A stretch of 64,000 nucleotides of DNA from Nocardiopsis sp. MG754419 (GTDB lineage: Bacteria; Actinomycetota; Actinomycetes; Streptosporangiales; Streptosporangiaceae), in contig NZ_QOCZ01000002.1 in assembly GCF_018207095.1 (NCBI RefSeq), positions 62,001 to 126,000 on the forward strand. Direction: 5' to 3'. This document shows, piece after piece, positions 3,800-47,950 of the stretch. Numbering within the stretch: the first letter of the stretch is position 1; every line of letters begins with the position of its first letter. The notes below the pieces were generated by a model. That model was given only the letters and a program-made list of their open reading frames with translations. It searched no databases and had not been told where the DNA came from. The translations under genes and the position numbers were made by a program.

Positions 3800-5449
3800 A
3801 TGTCGCACACCCCGTCGCCCGACCGCCCCCTCGCGCGGCCGCTCACCCCGAGCGCACACGAGGACACCTTCACCCGCGACCACCTGCCTCCCCCCGAACA
3901 GTGGCCGCTCATCGCACCCCTGGCCTCACCGGAGCGGATCAACTGCGCCGAGGAACTCCTGGACGGCACCATCACCCGACACGGCGCCGACCGTCGCTGC
4001 GTCGTGGGGGAGGTCGAGACCCTCACCTACGGGCGCCTCCGCGAACGGGTGGACGGCATCGCCCACGTCCTGGTGGAGGAACAGGGACTGCGCCCGGGCG
4101 AACGGGTGCTGCTGCGCGGACCCAACTCCCCCTGGCTGGCCGCCTGCTGGCTGGCGGTGATCAAGGCCGGCGGCGTGGTCGTCACCGTCCTGCCGGTGCT
4201 GCGCGCCGGTGAGCTCGCCACCATCGTGCGGTCCGCCCGTGTGGCCCACGCGGTGTGCGAGGCCCGCTTCCTGGACGACCTCGACGAGGCGTCCGGGACG
4301 CTGGGGGAGGCGGCCCCCGCGACCCTCGTCTACGGGGGAGCGGGGCCCGACGACCTCACGGCCCGCGTGGACGCCCGCACCACGCCCTTCAGCGCGGTGC
4401 CCACCGCCGCCGACGACGCGTGCCTGATCGCCTACACCTCCGGTACCACCGGCGACCCCAAGGGGTGCGTGCACTTCCACCGCGACGTGCTCGCCATCGC
4501 CGACACCTACTCCGCCCGGGTGCTCGAACCCCGTCCGGACGACCTCTTCGCCGGCAGTCCACCGTTCGCGTTCACCTTCGGTCTCGGTGGCCTGCTCATC
4601 TTTCCGCTGCGCGCCGGCGCCGCTACCGTCCTGCTGGAGCGTCCTCGCCCCGAGGCGCTGCTGGACGCCGTCACACGTCACGGCGTCACGGTCCTGTTCA
4701 CCGCGCCGACCGCCTACCGTGCGATGGCGGCGGGCCGAGGCGACCACGACCTGTCCACCCTGCGCCGCTGCGTGTCCGCCGGGGAACACCTGCCCGCCGC
4801 CACCTGGCGGGACTGGTACGAGGCCACCGGTCTGCCGCTGCTCGACGGGATCGGCGCCACCGAGATGCTGCACATTTTCCTCTCCTCCACCGACGAACAC
4901 ATGCGCCCCGGTTCCACCGGCAGGCCCGTCCCCGGGTTCACCGCCGCGATCCTGGACGATCGGGGCGACCCCGTGCCCGACGGTGAACCGGGACACCTGG
5001 CGGTCCGCGGCCCCGTCGGCTGCCGCTACCTGGACGACCCCCGCCAGGCCGAGTACGTCCGTCACGGCTGGAACCACACCGGTGACACCTACGTGCGCGA
5101 CGAGGACGGGTACTTCTGGTTCCGGGCGCGCAGCGACGACATGATCGTCTCCGCCGGGTACAACATCGCCCCCGCCGAGGTGGAGGAGGCCCTGCTCACC
5201 TCGCCCGACGTCGAGGAGGCCGCCGTGGTGGGGGTGGAGGACCCCGAACGGGGTCTGTCCGTGCGCGCCTTCGTGGTGCCCAGACCCGGCTCGGCCGCCG
5301 ACGCGGACCTGGCCGAGCGTTTACGCGCACATGTGCGCTCCCGGATCTCCCCCTACAAGACGCCGCGCTCGGTGGTCTTCGTGAACGCGTTGCCGCGCAC
5401 CCCCACCGGCAAGCTCCAGCGTTTCCGTCTCCGGGAGGGGGCCGGGTGA
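3800..5449 (+). CDS. aryl-CoA ligase, benzoate/2-aminobenzoate-CoA ligase family
   Basis: A 549-residue ANL-superfamily ligase that activates an aromatic acid to its CoA thioester with ATP. Motifs in order: the P-loop YTSGTTGDPKG, the A5-type LLDGIGATEML, the GDTYVRDEDGYFWFRAR hinge region and the C-terminal catalytic lysine in PRTPTGKLQR. The sequence style (CAEELLD near the N-terminus, CVHFHRDV after the P-loop) is that of benzoate/2-aminobenzoate-CoA ligases rather than fatty-acid ligases. Its position next to the fused monooxygenase/reductase favours anthranilate or salicylate. A Shine-Dalgarno (GGAGG) precedes the ATG. It lies 49 bases after the dehydrogenase. Confidence 0.9.
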   Translation: MSHTPSPDRPLARPLTPSAHEDTFTRDHLPPPEQWPLIAPLASPERINCAEELLDGTITRHGADRRCVVGEVETLTYGRLRERVDGIAHVLVEEQGLRPGERVLLRGPNSPWLAACWLAVIKAGGVVVTVLPVLRAGELATIVRSARVAHAVCEARFLDDLDEASGTLGEAAPATLVYGGAGPDDLTARVDARTTPFSAVPTAADDACLIAYTSGTTGDPKGCVHFHRDVLAIADTYSARVLEPRPDDLFAGSPPFAFTFGLGGLLIFPLRAGAATVLLERPRPEALLDAVTRHGVTVLFTAPTAYRAMAAGRGDHDLSTLRRCVSAGEHLPAATWRDWYEATGLPLLDGIGATEMLHIFLSSTDEHMRPGSTGRPVPGFTAAILDDRGDPVPDGEPGHLAVRGPVGCRYLDDPRQAEYVRHGWNHTGDTYVRDEDGYFWFRARSDDMIVSAGYNIAPAEVEEALLTSPDVEEAAVVGVEDPERGLSVRAFVVPRPGSAADADLAERLRAHVRSRISPYKTPRSVVFVNALPRTPTGKLQRFRLREGAG

Positions 5450-42724: not shown

Positions 42725-44008
42725 ATGGCACGCAGACGAGTACACGAGTACGTCCCTCTCCCCGCTGCCACTCTGGCTCTGGCGCTCGCGGCCACGGCCT
42801 GCGGCGGTGGTGGAGAGGGCGGGGACACCGACACCCTCCAGGTGTGGATCATGGAGGGCACCAACCCCGACGCCTCGGCCTTCTTCGACGAGGTCAACGA
42901 GACCTTCACCGGAGACACCGGCATCGAGGTCGACGTGGAGTTCGTGCCCTGGCAGGACGCGCAGGACAAGATCTCCACCGCCATCGCGGGCGGCACCACC
43001 CCCGACGTCATCGAGCTGGGCACCACCTTCACCCCGGAGTACGCCGACGCCGGCGCCCTGCACGACCTCTCCGGCTACATCGACGACCCCTCCCGCTTCC
43101 AGCAGGAGATGTACGAGATGGGCACCATCGACGACGCCGCCTACGGCGTGCCCTGGTACGCGTCGATCCGCTCGATCATCTACCGCGCGGACCTCTTCGA
43201 GGAGCACGGTCACGAGGCCCCCACGACCTGGGACGAGTTGCGTGAGACCGCGATCGACCTCGCCGAGGCCGAGGAGGAGATGATCGCCTTCCCCGTGCCC
43301 GGCAACGCCCAGTACTCCGTCATGCCGTGGGTCTGGGGCGGTGGCGGCGAGGTCGCCGTCGAGGAGGCCGACGGCACGTGGAGTTCCACGCTCGACGAAC
43401 CCGAGGGTCGCGCCGGGGTCGAGTTCTTCACCGACCTGGCCCTGGAGGACGGCCTGTCCACCACGGGCGCGGTCAATTGGAACGAGATCGACGTCATGGA
43501 GGCGCTCTCCGACGAGCAGGCCATCATGGCGATCTCCAACAGCTCCAACCCCAAGGCCATCATCGAGAACAACCCGGACCTGGAGGACAAGCTCGGCGTC
43601 TTCGTGCTGCCCGGCCAGGAGGACGGCTACACCGAGTCCTTCGCCGGCGGTTCGCTGCTGTCGGTGTTCGAGGGCACCGGCAACGAGGAGGCCGGGTGGC
43701 AGTACGTCGACCTGCTGACCGACGGGGAGTACTTCCAGCGCTGGGGTGAGGAGAGCGGCTTCTTCCCCGCCGGTGTGGCGGAGATCGAGGAGTACGCCGA
43801 CTCCGAGGACCCGCTGGTGCAGCCGTTCGCGATCCAGCTGCTGGAGGCGGGCAAGAGCACCCCGGCCGTCCCGGCGTGGTCGCAGGTGGAGGCCGAGGGC
43901 ATCATCGTCGGGATGCAGCAGGACATCCTCAACGGCAACGCCACGGTCGAGGAGGCCACCGCCGCCGCGGCCGAGGCCATCGAGAACATCCTCAACGAGG
44001 GCAGTTGA
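42725..44008 (+). CDS. sugar ABC transporter substrate-binding lipoprotein (DasA/NgcE-like)
   Basis: A 427-residue solute-binding lipoprotein. The signal peptide ends at AATAC|GGGG. The mature start TLQVWIMEGTNPDASAFFDEVNETF and PDVIELGTTFTPEYADAGALHDLSGYI resemble the N-acetylglucosamine/chitobiose binders DasA and NgcE of streptomycetes. GGAGGCGA precedes the ATG. It heads the three-gene transport operon. The ligand is inferred from resemblance and the dre-like site, not proven. Confidence 0.92.
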   Translation: MARRRVHEYVPLPAATLALALAATACGGGGEGGDTDTLQVWIMEGTNPDASAFFDEVNETFTGDTGIEVDVEFVPWQDAQDKISTAIAGGTTPDVIELGTTFTPEYADAGALHDLSGYIDDPSRFQQEMYEMGTIDDAAYGVPWYASIRSIIYRADLFEEHGHEAPTTWDELRETAIDLAEAEEEMIAFPVPGNAQYSVMPWVWGGGGEVAVEEADGTWSSTLDEPEGRAGVEFFTDLALEDGLSTTGAVNWNEIDVMEALSDEQAIMAISNSSNPKAIIENNPDLEDKLGVFVLPGQEDGYTESFAGGSLLSVFEGTGNEEAGWQYVDLLTDGEYFQRWGEESGFFPAGVAEIEEYADSEDPLVQPFAIQLLEAGKSTPAVPAWSQVEAEGIIVGMQQDILNGNATVEEATAAAAEAIENILNEGS

Positions 44009-44955
44009 TGCCCGCACCGACATACCGACGGTCGGTCCGCGCGCCGCTTCTGGGAATGCGGAGGCGGCGCGCCCTCCTGCCGTGGGTGCTCCTGGCACCG
44101 CCGCTCGGGGTCATCGGGATCCTGTTGCTGTTCCCGATCGGGCGGATCGTGTGGTTGTCCTTCCGGGACTTCAAACTGCGCAACCTGGTCTCGGGGGAGT
44201 CCGACTTCGTCGGGCTGTCCAACTACGTCACCCTGCTGACCGACCCGTACCTGCTCCAGGTCGTGCTGGTCAACACGGTGACGTTCGCCCTGGTCGCGGT
44301 GGTGACCACGGTCGTGCTCGGCACGCTGGTCGCCCTGTTGCTGTCCACGCTCAGACCCGTCACCCGGATCATCGTCGTCTCCTGCATCATGGTGGCCTGG
44401 GCGATGCCCGCGGTCAGCGGCACCTACGTGTGGATCTGGATCTTCGACGTCGACCAGGGTGTGGTCGCCCAGACGCTCATGAGCCTGGGGGTGATCGACC
44501 CCGGCGGGTACAACTGGTTCGCCGACCGGTTCTGGTTCTACGCCATCGTCACCCTCAACATCGTGCACAGCGGCTTCCCGTTCGTGGCGGTGACCGTCCT
44601 GGCCGGCCTGCTCACCGTGCCCAAGGAGCTGTACGAGGCGGCCCGTATCGACGGTGCAGGCGCGTGGAAGCGCTTCTGGAACGTCACGTTCCCCACCCTG
44701 CGCCCGGTGTTCGCCGTGGTGACGGTGTTGTCCACCATCTGGGACTTCAAGGTGTTCGCGCAGATCTACCTGATGCCCGGTGGCGACGTCGGCGGCTCCC
44801 AGATGCTCAACCTGGGCGTGTGGTCCTACGTGCGTTCCTTCGGTCAGAACGACTTCGGCATGGGCTCGGCCATCGCGGTCATGCTCACGCTGCTGCTCCT
44901 GGCCGTGACCATCGTCTACCTGCGCGCGTTGTTCCGGGAGGAGGAACTCCGATGA
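44008..44955 (+). CDS. sugar ABC transporter permease (MalF/DasB type)
   Basis: A 315-residue six-helix permease with EAA loop LYEAARIDGAGAWKRFWNVTFP. The ATG shares one base with the stop of the binding-protein gene. A typical ATGA overlap (ATG at 44952) at its end opens a 150-codon frame that does not look like a permease. This is the position where the second permease would normally start, but an antisense gene now intervenes. Confidence 0.93.
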   Translation: MPAPTYRRSVRAPLLGMRRRRALLPWVLLAPPLGVIGILLLFPIGRIVWLSFRDFKLRNLVSGESDFVGLSNYVTLLTDPYLLQVVLVNTVTFALVAVVTTVVLGTLVALLLSTLRPVTRIIVVSCIMVAWAMPAVSGTYVWIWIFDVDQGVVAQTLMSLGVIDPGGYNWFADRFWFYAIVTLNIVHSGFPFVAVTVLAGLLTVPKELYEAARIDGAGAWKRFWNVTFPTLRPVFAVVTVLSTIWDFKVFAQIYLMPGGDVGGSQMLNLGVWSYVRSFGQNDFGMGSAIAVMLTLLLLAVTIVYLRALFREEELR

Positions 44956-44984
44956 CGTCGACACCGCACCGGGCGGGCGCCCGG

Positions 44985-45281
44985 TCAGCCCAGACCGTCG
45001 ATCAGCCGGTCCCGTACGGTCCGCCAGTCCACCGACGCCAGGGGGCGTCGCTCCAGGTCCTCGCGGAGCGCGGTCATGGTCCGCAGCTCGTCCCGGTCCA
45101 GGGGACGACCGTCGTCCTCGCCCCGGTTCACCAGGCCGTCGACGTACACGTGCAAGCGGCGACCGGTGGCGTCGTCGTGCGCGTGCCGGACGGCGCTCGC
45201 ACGGAACCGGGCGTCGTGCGGGATCCACGCGGAGATCAACTCGGTGGGGGAGAGACCGGCGGAGTCGCCCACACGCCTCAC
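44985..45281 (-). CDS. small antisense gene inside the sugar ABC operon, unknown function
   Basis: A 98-residue ORF on the opposite strand between the two permease genes, with strong third-position GC bias and sensible composition (SAGLSPTELISAWIPHDARFRASAVRHAHDD; GRRLHVYVDGLVNRGEDDGRPLDRDELRTMTALREDLERRPL; DWRTVRDRLIDGLG). A -10-like TAGAAT (reverse strand, 45313-45318) and GGTGAGG lie upstream of the GTG; the GTG at 45272 is an alternative. I do not recognise the family. It has no transposase features. Confidence 0.6.
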   Translation of the reverse strand: MRRVGDSAGLSPTELISAWIPHDARFRASAVRHAHDDATGRRLHVYVDGLVNRGEDDGRPLDRDELRTMTALREDLERRPLASVDWRTVRDRLIDGLG

Positions 45282-45387
45282 CTCACCGTCCGCGATCTCG
45301 GTAACGACAGGGATTCTAGGGCATCGCACGCGAGTGCGGACGAGTGTGAGCGCCGCGATCGAGGCCTCCGTCGACAGAGGAGGGTCG

Positions 45388-46296
45388 TTGGTCACGTCTG
45401 ACTCCGAGGCCATCGTCGAACGGGACGAGGCCGACTGGGAGGCACGGGTGCGGGCCGCCCGCCGACACGGCGGAACACTGCGGGTCGGGCGCGTGCTGGC
45501 CAAGGCGGCGGGGGTCTCCCTGCTTCTGCTCTTCACGCTGTTCCCCGTCTACTTCATGTTGGTCAGCGCCTTCTCCGAACAGGCCACCTCCGGTACGGGG
45601 GCGCTGCTGCCGACCTCCTTCACCTTCGAGAACTTCAGGTACGTCCTGGTGGAGGCCAACTTCCTCCTGTACCTGCGCAACTCGCTGACGGTCGCCGCCG
45701 TCACGGTGGCCATCGCCTGCGTGCTCGCCATGTTGGCGGCGGTGGCGGTGGGCCGGTTCCGCTTCCGGTTCCGCACGGCGGTGCTGGTCATGGTGCTCAT
45801 CGTGCAGATGGTGCCGTTGGAGGCGCTGGTCATCCCGCTCTTCCTCCAGGTGCGCGACCTGCAGATGCTCAACACCGTGCTGGGTTTGGCCGTCGCCTAC
45901 GTGGCGCTCTCCCTGCCCCTGGCGATCTGGATGATGCGCGGCTTCGTGGCGGCGGTGCCCAAGGAGGTGGAGGAGGCCGCCTACATCGATGGCGCCTCCT
46001 GGCCGCAGATGTTCTGGAAGGTGCTGTTCCCCCTGGTGGCGCCGGGTCTGGTGGCCACGGCCATCTTCTCCTTCATCGTGGCCTGGAACGAGTTCGTGTT
46101 GGCCATGACCTTCATGACCCAGAGCGAGAACTTCACGGTCGCGGTCGGGCTGCGTCAGTTCTTCGGGCAGTACGCCAACGACTGGGGACACGTCATGGCG
46201 GCGTCCACGATCATCACCATTCCGGTGATGGTGTTCTTCATCCTCGTCCAGCGTTGGCTGGTGGCGGGGCTCGTGCAGGGGGCGGTCAAGGGCTGA
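45388..46296 (+). CDS. sugar ABC transporter permease (MalG/DasC type), TTG start
   Basis: A 302-residue six-helix permease with EAA loop EVEEAAYIDGASWPQMFWKVLFP and the MalG ending GLVQGAVKG. The longer frame upstream overlaps the antisense gene and is Ser/Arg-rich noise. The TTG at 45388 has AGAGGAGGG four to five bases ahead and gives a normal cytosolic N-terminus before the first helix. It is separated from the first permease by about 430 bases holding the antisense gene, which is abnormal for this operon type. No ATPase gene is present, so an MsiK-type partner is expected. Confidence 0.9.
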   Translation: MVTSDSEAIVERDEADWEARVRAARRHGGTLRVGRVLAKAAGVSLLLLFTLFPVYFMLVSAFSEQATSGTGALLPTSFTFENFRYVLVEANFLLYLRNSLTVAAVTVAIACVLAMLAAVAVGRFRFRFRTAVLVMVLIVQMVPLEALVIPLFLQVRDLQMLNTVLGLAVAYVALSLPLAIWMMRGFVAAVPKEVEEAAYIDGASWPQMFWKVLFPLVAPGLVATAIFSFIVAWNEFVLAMTFMTQSENFTVAVGLRQFFGQYANDWGHVMAASTIITIPVMVFFILVQRWLVAGLVQGAVKG

Positions 46297-46326
46297 TCCG
46301 GTCCGGCGCGCACACGTCCGCACGCA

Positions 46327-46356
46327 GGGGGCGGCATCCGAACGGGTGCCGCCCCC
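46327..46356. terminator. bidirectional hairpin between ABC operon and acyl-CoA ligase
   Basis: GGGGGCGGCA (46327-46336) pairs with TGCCGCCCCC (46347-46356), and pairing continues inward (CCG/CGG) to a very small loop. Confidence 0.7.
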
Positions 46357-46369
46357 TCGACGCGTCGGG

Positions 46370-47950
46370 TCAGCCGTCGCGCAGTTCGCGCTTGAGGATC
46401 TTGCCGGTGGAGGTCATCGGCAGTTCGACGCGGAACTCGATCAGGCGCGGGTACTTGTAGGCGGCCAGCCGTTCCCGGGCGAAGGCGGTGAGCTCCTCGT
46501 GCGTGGTCTCCACACCGTCCTTGAGGATCACGAACGCCTTGACCTCCTCACCCTGGGTGTCGTGGGGGACCCCCACCACGGCGGCCAGACTCACCGCCTC
46601 GTGGGTCATCAGGATCTCCTCGACCTCACGCGGGTACACGTTGTAGCCCCCGCGGATGATCATGTCCTTGGAGCGGTCGATGATGAAGTAGAAACCGTCG
46701 CCGTCGCGCCGCGCGATGTCGCCGGTGCGGAACCAGCCGTCCCGGATCACCTCGGCGTTGACCTCGGGACGCTCGTGGTACCCCTTCATGACCAGGTGGC
46801 CGCGGACCGCGATCTCACCGACCGGGTCCTCCCCGTCCGCCGCCACGACCTCGTTCCACTCGGGGTCGATCAGTTTCATCTCCACACCCCAGACCGGGCG
46901 GCCGATGGAGCCGGGCTTGGCACCGGTGGCGGGGTTGTTGAAGGAGGCGACCGGAGAGGTCTCGGAGAGGCCGTACCCCTCCTTGATGGCCACACCGAAG
47001 AGTTTGGTGAAGTCCTCCGACAGCTGGGCGGGCAGGGCCGAACCGCCGGAGACGGCGTCGACGACGTTGTCCGCGATCCGCGCCAGGTCGTACCGGCCGG
47101 GCTCGGCGGACCGGGCCGCGTTGAGCAGGCCCCAGTACATGGTGGGCACCCCCGCGAAGCCGGTGACGTTCTCCTTCTCCATGAGCGTCAGGGCCTGGTC
47201 TCCGTCGAACCGGGGCAGCAGCACCATCGTGCCGTGGCGGTAGAGCGGGGCGTTGAGCATGACCGTCTGGCCGAAGATGTGGAACAGCGGCAGCACCACC
47301 AGGGAGACGTCACGACCGTCCGGGTGGGGGTTGACCAGGCTGGAGGACGCCACGGCGTTGAGCAGCAGGTTGGTGTGGGTCAACTCGGCGCCCTTGGGCC
47401 GCCCGGTCGTGCCGCTGGTGTAGATGATGACGGCGGTGTCGTCGCCCTGGGCCTGCACCGTCTCGAACGTGCCCGGCATGCCGTTCAGGGCGGCCCAGAG
47501 GGTCTCGGCGCCCTCGATGGTGGACTCCGTGGCACCCGCCGAGGGCGGCATGTCCACGAACACCTCGCACGTCGACACCTGCGCGAAGGCCTCGTGACAC
47601 CGCTCGCCCAGCGGGAGTTCGGGCGAGCCGGTGAAGGCGAACAGGGCCTTGGCCCCGGAGTCCTCCAGGTGATAGACGATCTCGCGCGGGGTCAGCAGGA
47701 CGTTGAGCGGGACCACCACGGCGCCCGCCTTGAGGGCGCCGAAGTACACGAACGGGAAGTAGGGCAGGTTGGGGCTGGCCAGGGCCACCCTGTCGCCCGG
47801 CCGGATCCCCCGGGCCACGAGCAGGTTCGCGACCTGGTTGGCGATCATGTCGGTGATCGCGTAGTCGAGACGGGTGTCGCCGAAGACCAGACACTCCTTC
47901 TCGGGCGTGGATCGCGCACCGTCCTCCAGGAGCGTGGACAGGTTGAACAT
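46370..47950 (-). CDS. long-chain fatty acyl-CoA ligase (FadD-like, AMP-forming)
   Basis: A 526-residue ANL ligase. P-loop YTSGTTGRPKG, A5-type IKEGYGLSETSP, hinge DGFYFIIDRSKDMIIRGGYNVYP and C-terminal LPMTSTGKILKREL with the catalytic lysine. The FIIDRSKDMI hinge and VYPREVE favour medium/long-chain fatty acids over aromatics. The ATG at 47950 has GGGAGG just upstream; the longer frame is unsupported. Its promoter region holds a palindromic element between -35 and -10 candidates, so repression by a lipid-sensing regulator is plausible. Confidence 0.9.
   Translation of the reverse strand: MFNLSTLLEDGARSTPEKECLVFGDTRLDYAITDMIANQVANLLVARGIRPGDRVALASPNLPYFPFVYFGALKAGAVVVPLNVLLTPREIVYHLEDSGAKALFAFTGSPELPLGERCHEAFAQVSTCEVFVDMPPSAGATESTIEGAETLWAALNGMPGTFETVQAQGDDTAVIIYTSGTTGRPKGAELTHTNLLLNAVASSSLVNPHPDGRDVSLVVLPLFHIFGQTVMLNAPLYRHGTMVLLPRFDGDQALTLMEKENVTGFAGVPTMYWGLLNAARSAEPGRYDLARIADNVVDAVSGGSALPAQLSEDFTKLFGVAIKEGYGLSETSPVASFNNPATGAKPGSIGRPVWGVEMKLIDPEWNEVVAADGEDPVGEIAVRGHLVMKGYHERPEVNAEVIRDGWFRTGDIARRDGDGFYFIIDRSKDMIIRGGYNVYPREVEEILMTHEAVSLAAVVGVPHDTQGEEVKAFVILKDGVETTHEELTAFARERLAAYKYPRLIEFRVELPMTSTGKILKRELRDG

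Follow-up and report, generated by a model that had tools for sequence, protein, structure and literature searches.

The window, a 64,000-nt stretch of genomic DNA from a strain whose genome is assigned to one GTDB genus (Nocardiopsis), carries an ABC transporter operon in which a small gene on the opposite strand separates the two permeases (Table 1). The gene order at the locus is cfa-type methyltransferase, 172-aa gene, ABC binding protein, permease 1, antisense gene (minus strand), permease 2, acyl-CoA ligase (minus strand) and leuS. The original prediction for this locus had described an opposite-strand gene between two permeases, a permease 1 that ends in ATGA, and a permease 2 that restarts at a TTG with a strong Shine-Dalgarno, and we found each of these features in place, with the strong Shine-Dalgarno directly upstream of the TTG. 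The hairpin 3′ of permease 2 probably marks the operon end and acts as a bidirectional terminator in common with the convergent ligase gene. The permeases and binding protein are of the same kind as the MalF/MalG, UgpA/UgpE and GlcT/GlcU sugar ABC transporters, but they reach no equivalog cut-off, so no substrate is assigned. At one sister-genus locus (L128), a GH3 (NagZ-like) gene lies 3′ of permease 2 (L128:6326-7387) and a gene that by eye is cytochrome P450-like lies 5′ of the operon (L128:1725-2984), both absent from those places in the window; the GH3-like gene hints at an amino-sugar as the substrate.

Table 1. Features of the interrupted ABC transporter operon, in window coordinates
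Feature	Position	Strand	Evidence
Sugar-type ABC substrate-binding protein (SBP_bac_1)	42725..44008	+	Pfam PF01547, E 1e-40
Permease 1 (BPD_transp_1)	44008..44955	+	Pfam PF00528, E 2e-16; orthologues in 38/40 genus genomes
ATGA: permease 1 stop and ancestral, now unused permease 2 start	44952..44955	+	Sequence; 24 sister-genus loci
Antisense gene, 95 aa, GTG start, branch A of an unnamed family	44985..45272	-	Orthologues in 33/40 genus genomes; alignment A2; AF2 model, pLDDT 85
TAGAAT, predicted -10 element of the antisense gene	45318-45313	-	Genus-conserved TANANTC motif
Shine-Dalgarno AGAGGAGGG preceding the new start of permease 2	45376..45384	+	Sequence; SD-preceded start also in the inserted relatives listed
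Permease 2 (BPD_transp_1), TTG restart at 45388	45388..46296	+	Pfam, E 5e-21 (computed on the longer open frame 45076-46296); start conserved
Strong hairpin 3′ of permease 2	46310..46375	+	Fold z-score -4.75 for 46290-46375

The antisense gene is a real coding gene, an observation far above chance. Its ORF is uninterrupted in all 33 orthologues, with start and stop conserved across them, and identity with the window copy ranges from 57 to 81% among the 31 aligned with it; alignment A2 of the protein contains 36 invariant columns. GC content by codon position in the minus frame is 0.77/0.51/0.91, with GC-rich third positions, and dN/dS is mostly low (0.02-0.54 by YN00 for the 12 computable of 16 species pairs), pointing to purifying selection at the amino-acid level, although very close pairs give weak estimates (up to 0.9 by NG86). 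The 98-codon gene of the original prediction was thus rightly judged to be coding but is too long, as every orthologue has either GTG or ATG at the start used here (ATG in two relatives), giving 95 aa in the window. We also considered whether the minus-strand ORF might be a by-product of high-GC composition, in which case the gap would really hold non-coding DNA or sequence that extends permease 2 at its N-terminus. In the window itself, the plus-strand permease 2 frame is indeed open back to 45076; that frame, however, contains stops across the insert in 24 of 30 relatives, ruling out an extension coded on the plus strand of the gap. Together with the intact minus-strand ORFs, the invariant columns and the presence of relatives at unrelated loci, these comparative data already refute the compositional reading, to which we assign next to no probability.

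Comparison with other genomes allowed us to place the gene in the history of the operon. In sister genera of the family we examined 24 loci, and at each of them this operon lies in the same neighborhood with no insert and with contiguous permeases. Permease 2 is in frame with an ATGA or GTGA overlap in all 24, as calculated from how far the permease 2 match lies from the permease 1 stop. Within the genus, 38 of 40 genomes contain the operon and 32 of those 38 carry the antisense gene in conserved position and orientation, the gene overlapping or almost reaching the permease 1 end in some species. Because the sister genera are insert-free with permease 2 in frame, and most of the genus carries the gene, we interpret it as an insertion that dates from near the root of the genus and was accompanied by a new downstream start for permease 2. 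An inserted gene with subsequent repair of the downstream start was one of two explanations originally offered, the other being an antisense regulator of the operon, and a gap in all relatives was named as one finding that would speak against it; the gap is present in most of the genus but not in the sister genera, which makes the insertion old rather than refuted. The sequence observation and the insertion itself were therefore correct, whereas the start codon and the age needed revision, a recent species-specific event being ruled out by the genus-wide distribution of the gene. A search for insertion-sequence target duplications or border repeats yielded weak, chance-like repeats at most.

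The exceptions within the genus are of several kinds. One of the 33 carriers (G024) no longer has the operon and retains the antisense gene, which now directly adjoins the ligase gene and is codirectional with it, and one genome (G012) has neither operon nor antisense gene. Six genomes have the operon and lack the antisense gene. Two of these (G013 and G019) branch within the carriers and retain the downstream GAGGAGG restart of permease 2, so they lost the gene secondarily. In the other four (G016, G021, G044 and G047), the permeases are joined by a TTGA overlap, which could be either the ancestral state or a reversion; their nesting in the tree is weak, and for the clade G012/16/21/44/47 an AU test did not separate never having had the gene from losing it (p 0.38). 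In G023 (L079), and apparently in G009 (L083), the spacer that separates permease 2 from the antisense gene is about 200 bases longer than in close relatives.

The gene family, described as unknown in the original prediction, is still without a named relative. No named family matched the protein over the curated cut-off in Pfam or NCBIfam, or with clear significance in PHROGs or PADLOC, where, as in the first two, the only matches were weak, inconsistent and sub-threshold; the best PDB match by sequence had an E value of 0.75. AlphaFold2 gave a confident model (pLDDT 85) of five helices and a small hairpin, for which Foldseek found no PDB match below E 1. Against viral models the best matches were two uncharacterised phage proteins (E 0.4, TM 0.52-0.54), too weak to be used. 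A second branch of the family, paralogue B, occurs away from the operon in 21 of the 40 genus genomes, such that every genome has A or B (19 A only, 7 B only, 14 both), with too few independent changes on the tree for this complementarity to reach significance. B copies occupy at least four unrelated neighborhoods (L235-L252, around position 4001), which by eye include VTC/FTCD-like, UvrA-like, rhodanese-like and GlmS-like genes. By eye, B copies also have a -10-like hexamer six to ten bases before the ATG, a distance short enough to suggest that they are transcribed as leaderless messages. In other genera we found no family members in the family, order, class and phylum samples, save near-chance matches. 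Matches in named species genomes were nearly all from Nocardiopsis; the exceptions were two records labelled Streptomonospora nanhaiensis (NZ_CP113264.1, L222) and Glycomyces fuscus (NYMS01000062.1, L223), both of which fall within Nocardiopsis, so that their names or assemblies look misassigned.

The family is also carried by a phage. Plasmids and annotated phages gave no match, and among the phage sequences searched a single IMG/VR contig of 40 kb from a tailed phage (IMGVR_UViG_3300027711_000006) encodes a B-type protein (L263:4977-5279) with 50-66% identity to B members. Its neighbors are endolysin-like, glycosyltransferase and phage-regulator genes, and a portal protein is encoded elsewhere on the contig (E 2e-87). 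This B-type gene on a phage contig makes the family a mobile one. The phage member, a lone small gene that has a promoter-like element of its own and lies next to glycosyltransferase genes and a repressor-like gene, resembles phage moron genes, from which family A differs in being a fixed chromosomal gene within one operon. This one contig places a family member on a phage genome; we do not claim moron status for the copy in the window, whose locus is an ordinary chromosomal one.

Next, we looked at the signals from which the two strands could be transcribed. On the minus strand, 28 of 30 spacers between the antisense gene start and permease 2 contain a TANANTC motif, in full TA(A/G/C)A(A/C/T)TC and mostly TAGAATCC or TAGACTCC, compared with a mean of 0.4 and a maximum of 3 in shuffled spacers, although the shuffles preserved no more than the composition in single bases, and genomes of this type may be poor in TA. 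The motif is found in none of the 30 spacers on the plus strand. It lies about 35-110 nt upstream of the antisense start and stays constant while the bases around it diverge, matching the expectation for a promoter -10, so that the TAGAAT-like -10 originally proposed for the window gene appears to be a genus-conserved promoter element of its own. On the plus strand, a TANNNT hexamer is absent from 28 of 30 spacers and from 29 of 30 gene bodies, leaving permease 2 with no recognisable promoter, an absence that is also compatible with a promoter of another sigma class. Given the missing hexamer, permease 2 probably depends on read-through from the operon. In the window there is no terminator-like site between permease 1 and permease 2, which likewise agrees with read-through. 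The region gave no credible Rfam match.

An arrangement of this kind is known from S. aureus, where the operon menE-menC-MW1733-ytkD-MW1731 is broken by an opposite-strand protein gene with its own promoter and is described as a noncontiguous operon (PMC7154746). By its sequence, the locus in the window is a candidate case of the same arrangement with a new protein family: an opposite-strand gene lies between three ABC genes that in sister genera are adjacent, with overlapping permeases, and this gene has a conserved -10 that suggests a promoter of its own. As in S. aureus, the whole antisense message would be able to pair with a part of the operon message that lies inside it and is not translated (PMC7154746). 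The present case differs in phylum, in the type of operon (sugar ABC) and in the inserted gene family, in that co-transcription and reciprocal regulation are inferred here, and in that sister genera without the insert make it possible to place the insertion. It also resembles an excludon, in which opposite overlapping transcripts couple unrelated functions, except that the overlap here would span a whole nested gene rather than a long untranslated region (PMC7154746).

We propose a model in which a gene for a 95-aa protein, from a family that is restricted to Nocardiopsis and possibly phage-borne, entered the ancestral sbp-permease1-permease2 operon in reverse early in the genus. Permease 2 lost its overlapping start and gained a ribosome-binding site of its own further downstream. 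The antisense gene would be driven by the conserved -10 promoter upstream of it, and the sugar operon would probably still be made as one transcript that runs through the antisense gene. From the anatomy of the locus the sense and antisense messages likely overlap, and they would be fully complementary over the whole inserted gene, which could lead to mutual interference or RNase III cleavage. The protein itself may have a role in the cell separate from sugar uptake and common to A and paralogue B. The sequences themselves show the insertion, the coding status and purifying selection, the -10, the new start and the secondary loss, whereas read-through, the interference or cleavage and the role of the protein are inferred. 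We consider this model as a whole, from reverse insertion to read-through transcription, to be fairly probable.

The principal alternative would treat the antisense gene as cargo only: an unrecognised promoter in the spacer would serve permease 2, and the operon would be split into two units with no mutual regulation. Permease 2 has a strong Shine-Dalgarno of its own in the listed relatives, and the untranslated stretch measures 430-690 nt, a length that would expose read-through RNA to Rho and so favor a new promoter; moreover, Actinobacteria use many sigma factors. The lack of plus-strand TANNNT hexamers in nearly all spacers and gene bodies counts against it, and we regard this alternative as possible but doubtful. 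The gene could instead serve the sugar operon as a dedicated regulator, whether as a cis antisense RNA or via its protein, as its conserved position and orientation in 32 of 38 operon-bearing genomes and its closeness to the permease 1 end in some species might suggest. Such a role fits poorly with G024, which keeps the gene without the operon, with the six genomes that keep the operon without the gene, with the unrelated genes that adjoin paralogue B, and with a protein that is constrained at the amino-acid level and matches no DNA-binding family or fold. We find a dedicated regulator quite improbable, and since the gene survives without the operon and has paralogues elsewhere, control of this operon is probably not its chief function; antisense regulation of the operon as a by-product is possible. 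More speculatively, the family could be phage-derived, now indispensable in Nocardiopsis and yet moving between sites, one of which would be a genus-wide noncontiguous operon where its own expression and sugar uptake are mutually exclusive, so that import of an amino-sugar would be tied to a stress or phage-related function; we see this as a long shot. The best reading of the locus is that a nomadic, possibly phage-borne small gene with a function separate from sugar uptake made what is probably a noncontiguous operon.

These results define a previously unannotated protein family that is present in every Nocardiopsis genome examined, and provide an unusually clean evolutionary record of an antisense gene entering a conserved operon and persisting there. 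This record comprises insert-free sister genera, copies in most of the genus, loss with a start-site scar, and one species with the gene but without the operon. It thereby offers a natural strain series for asking whether noncontiguous operons serve regulation or are accidents that cells tolerate.
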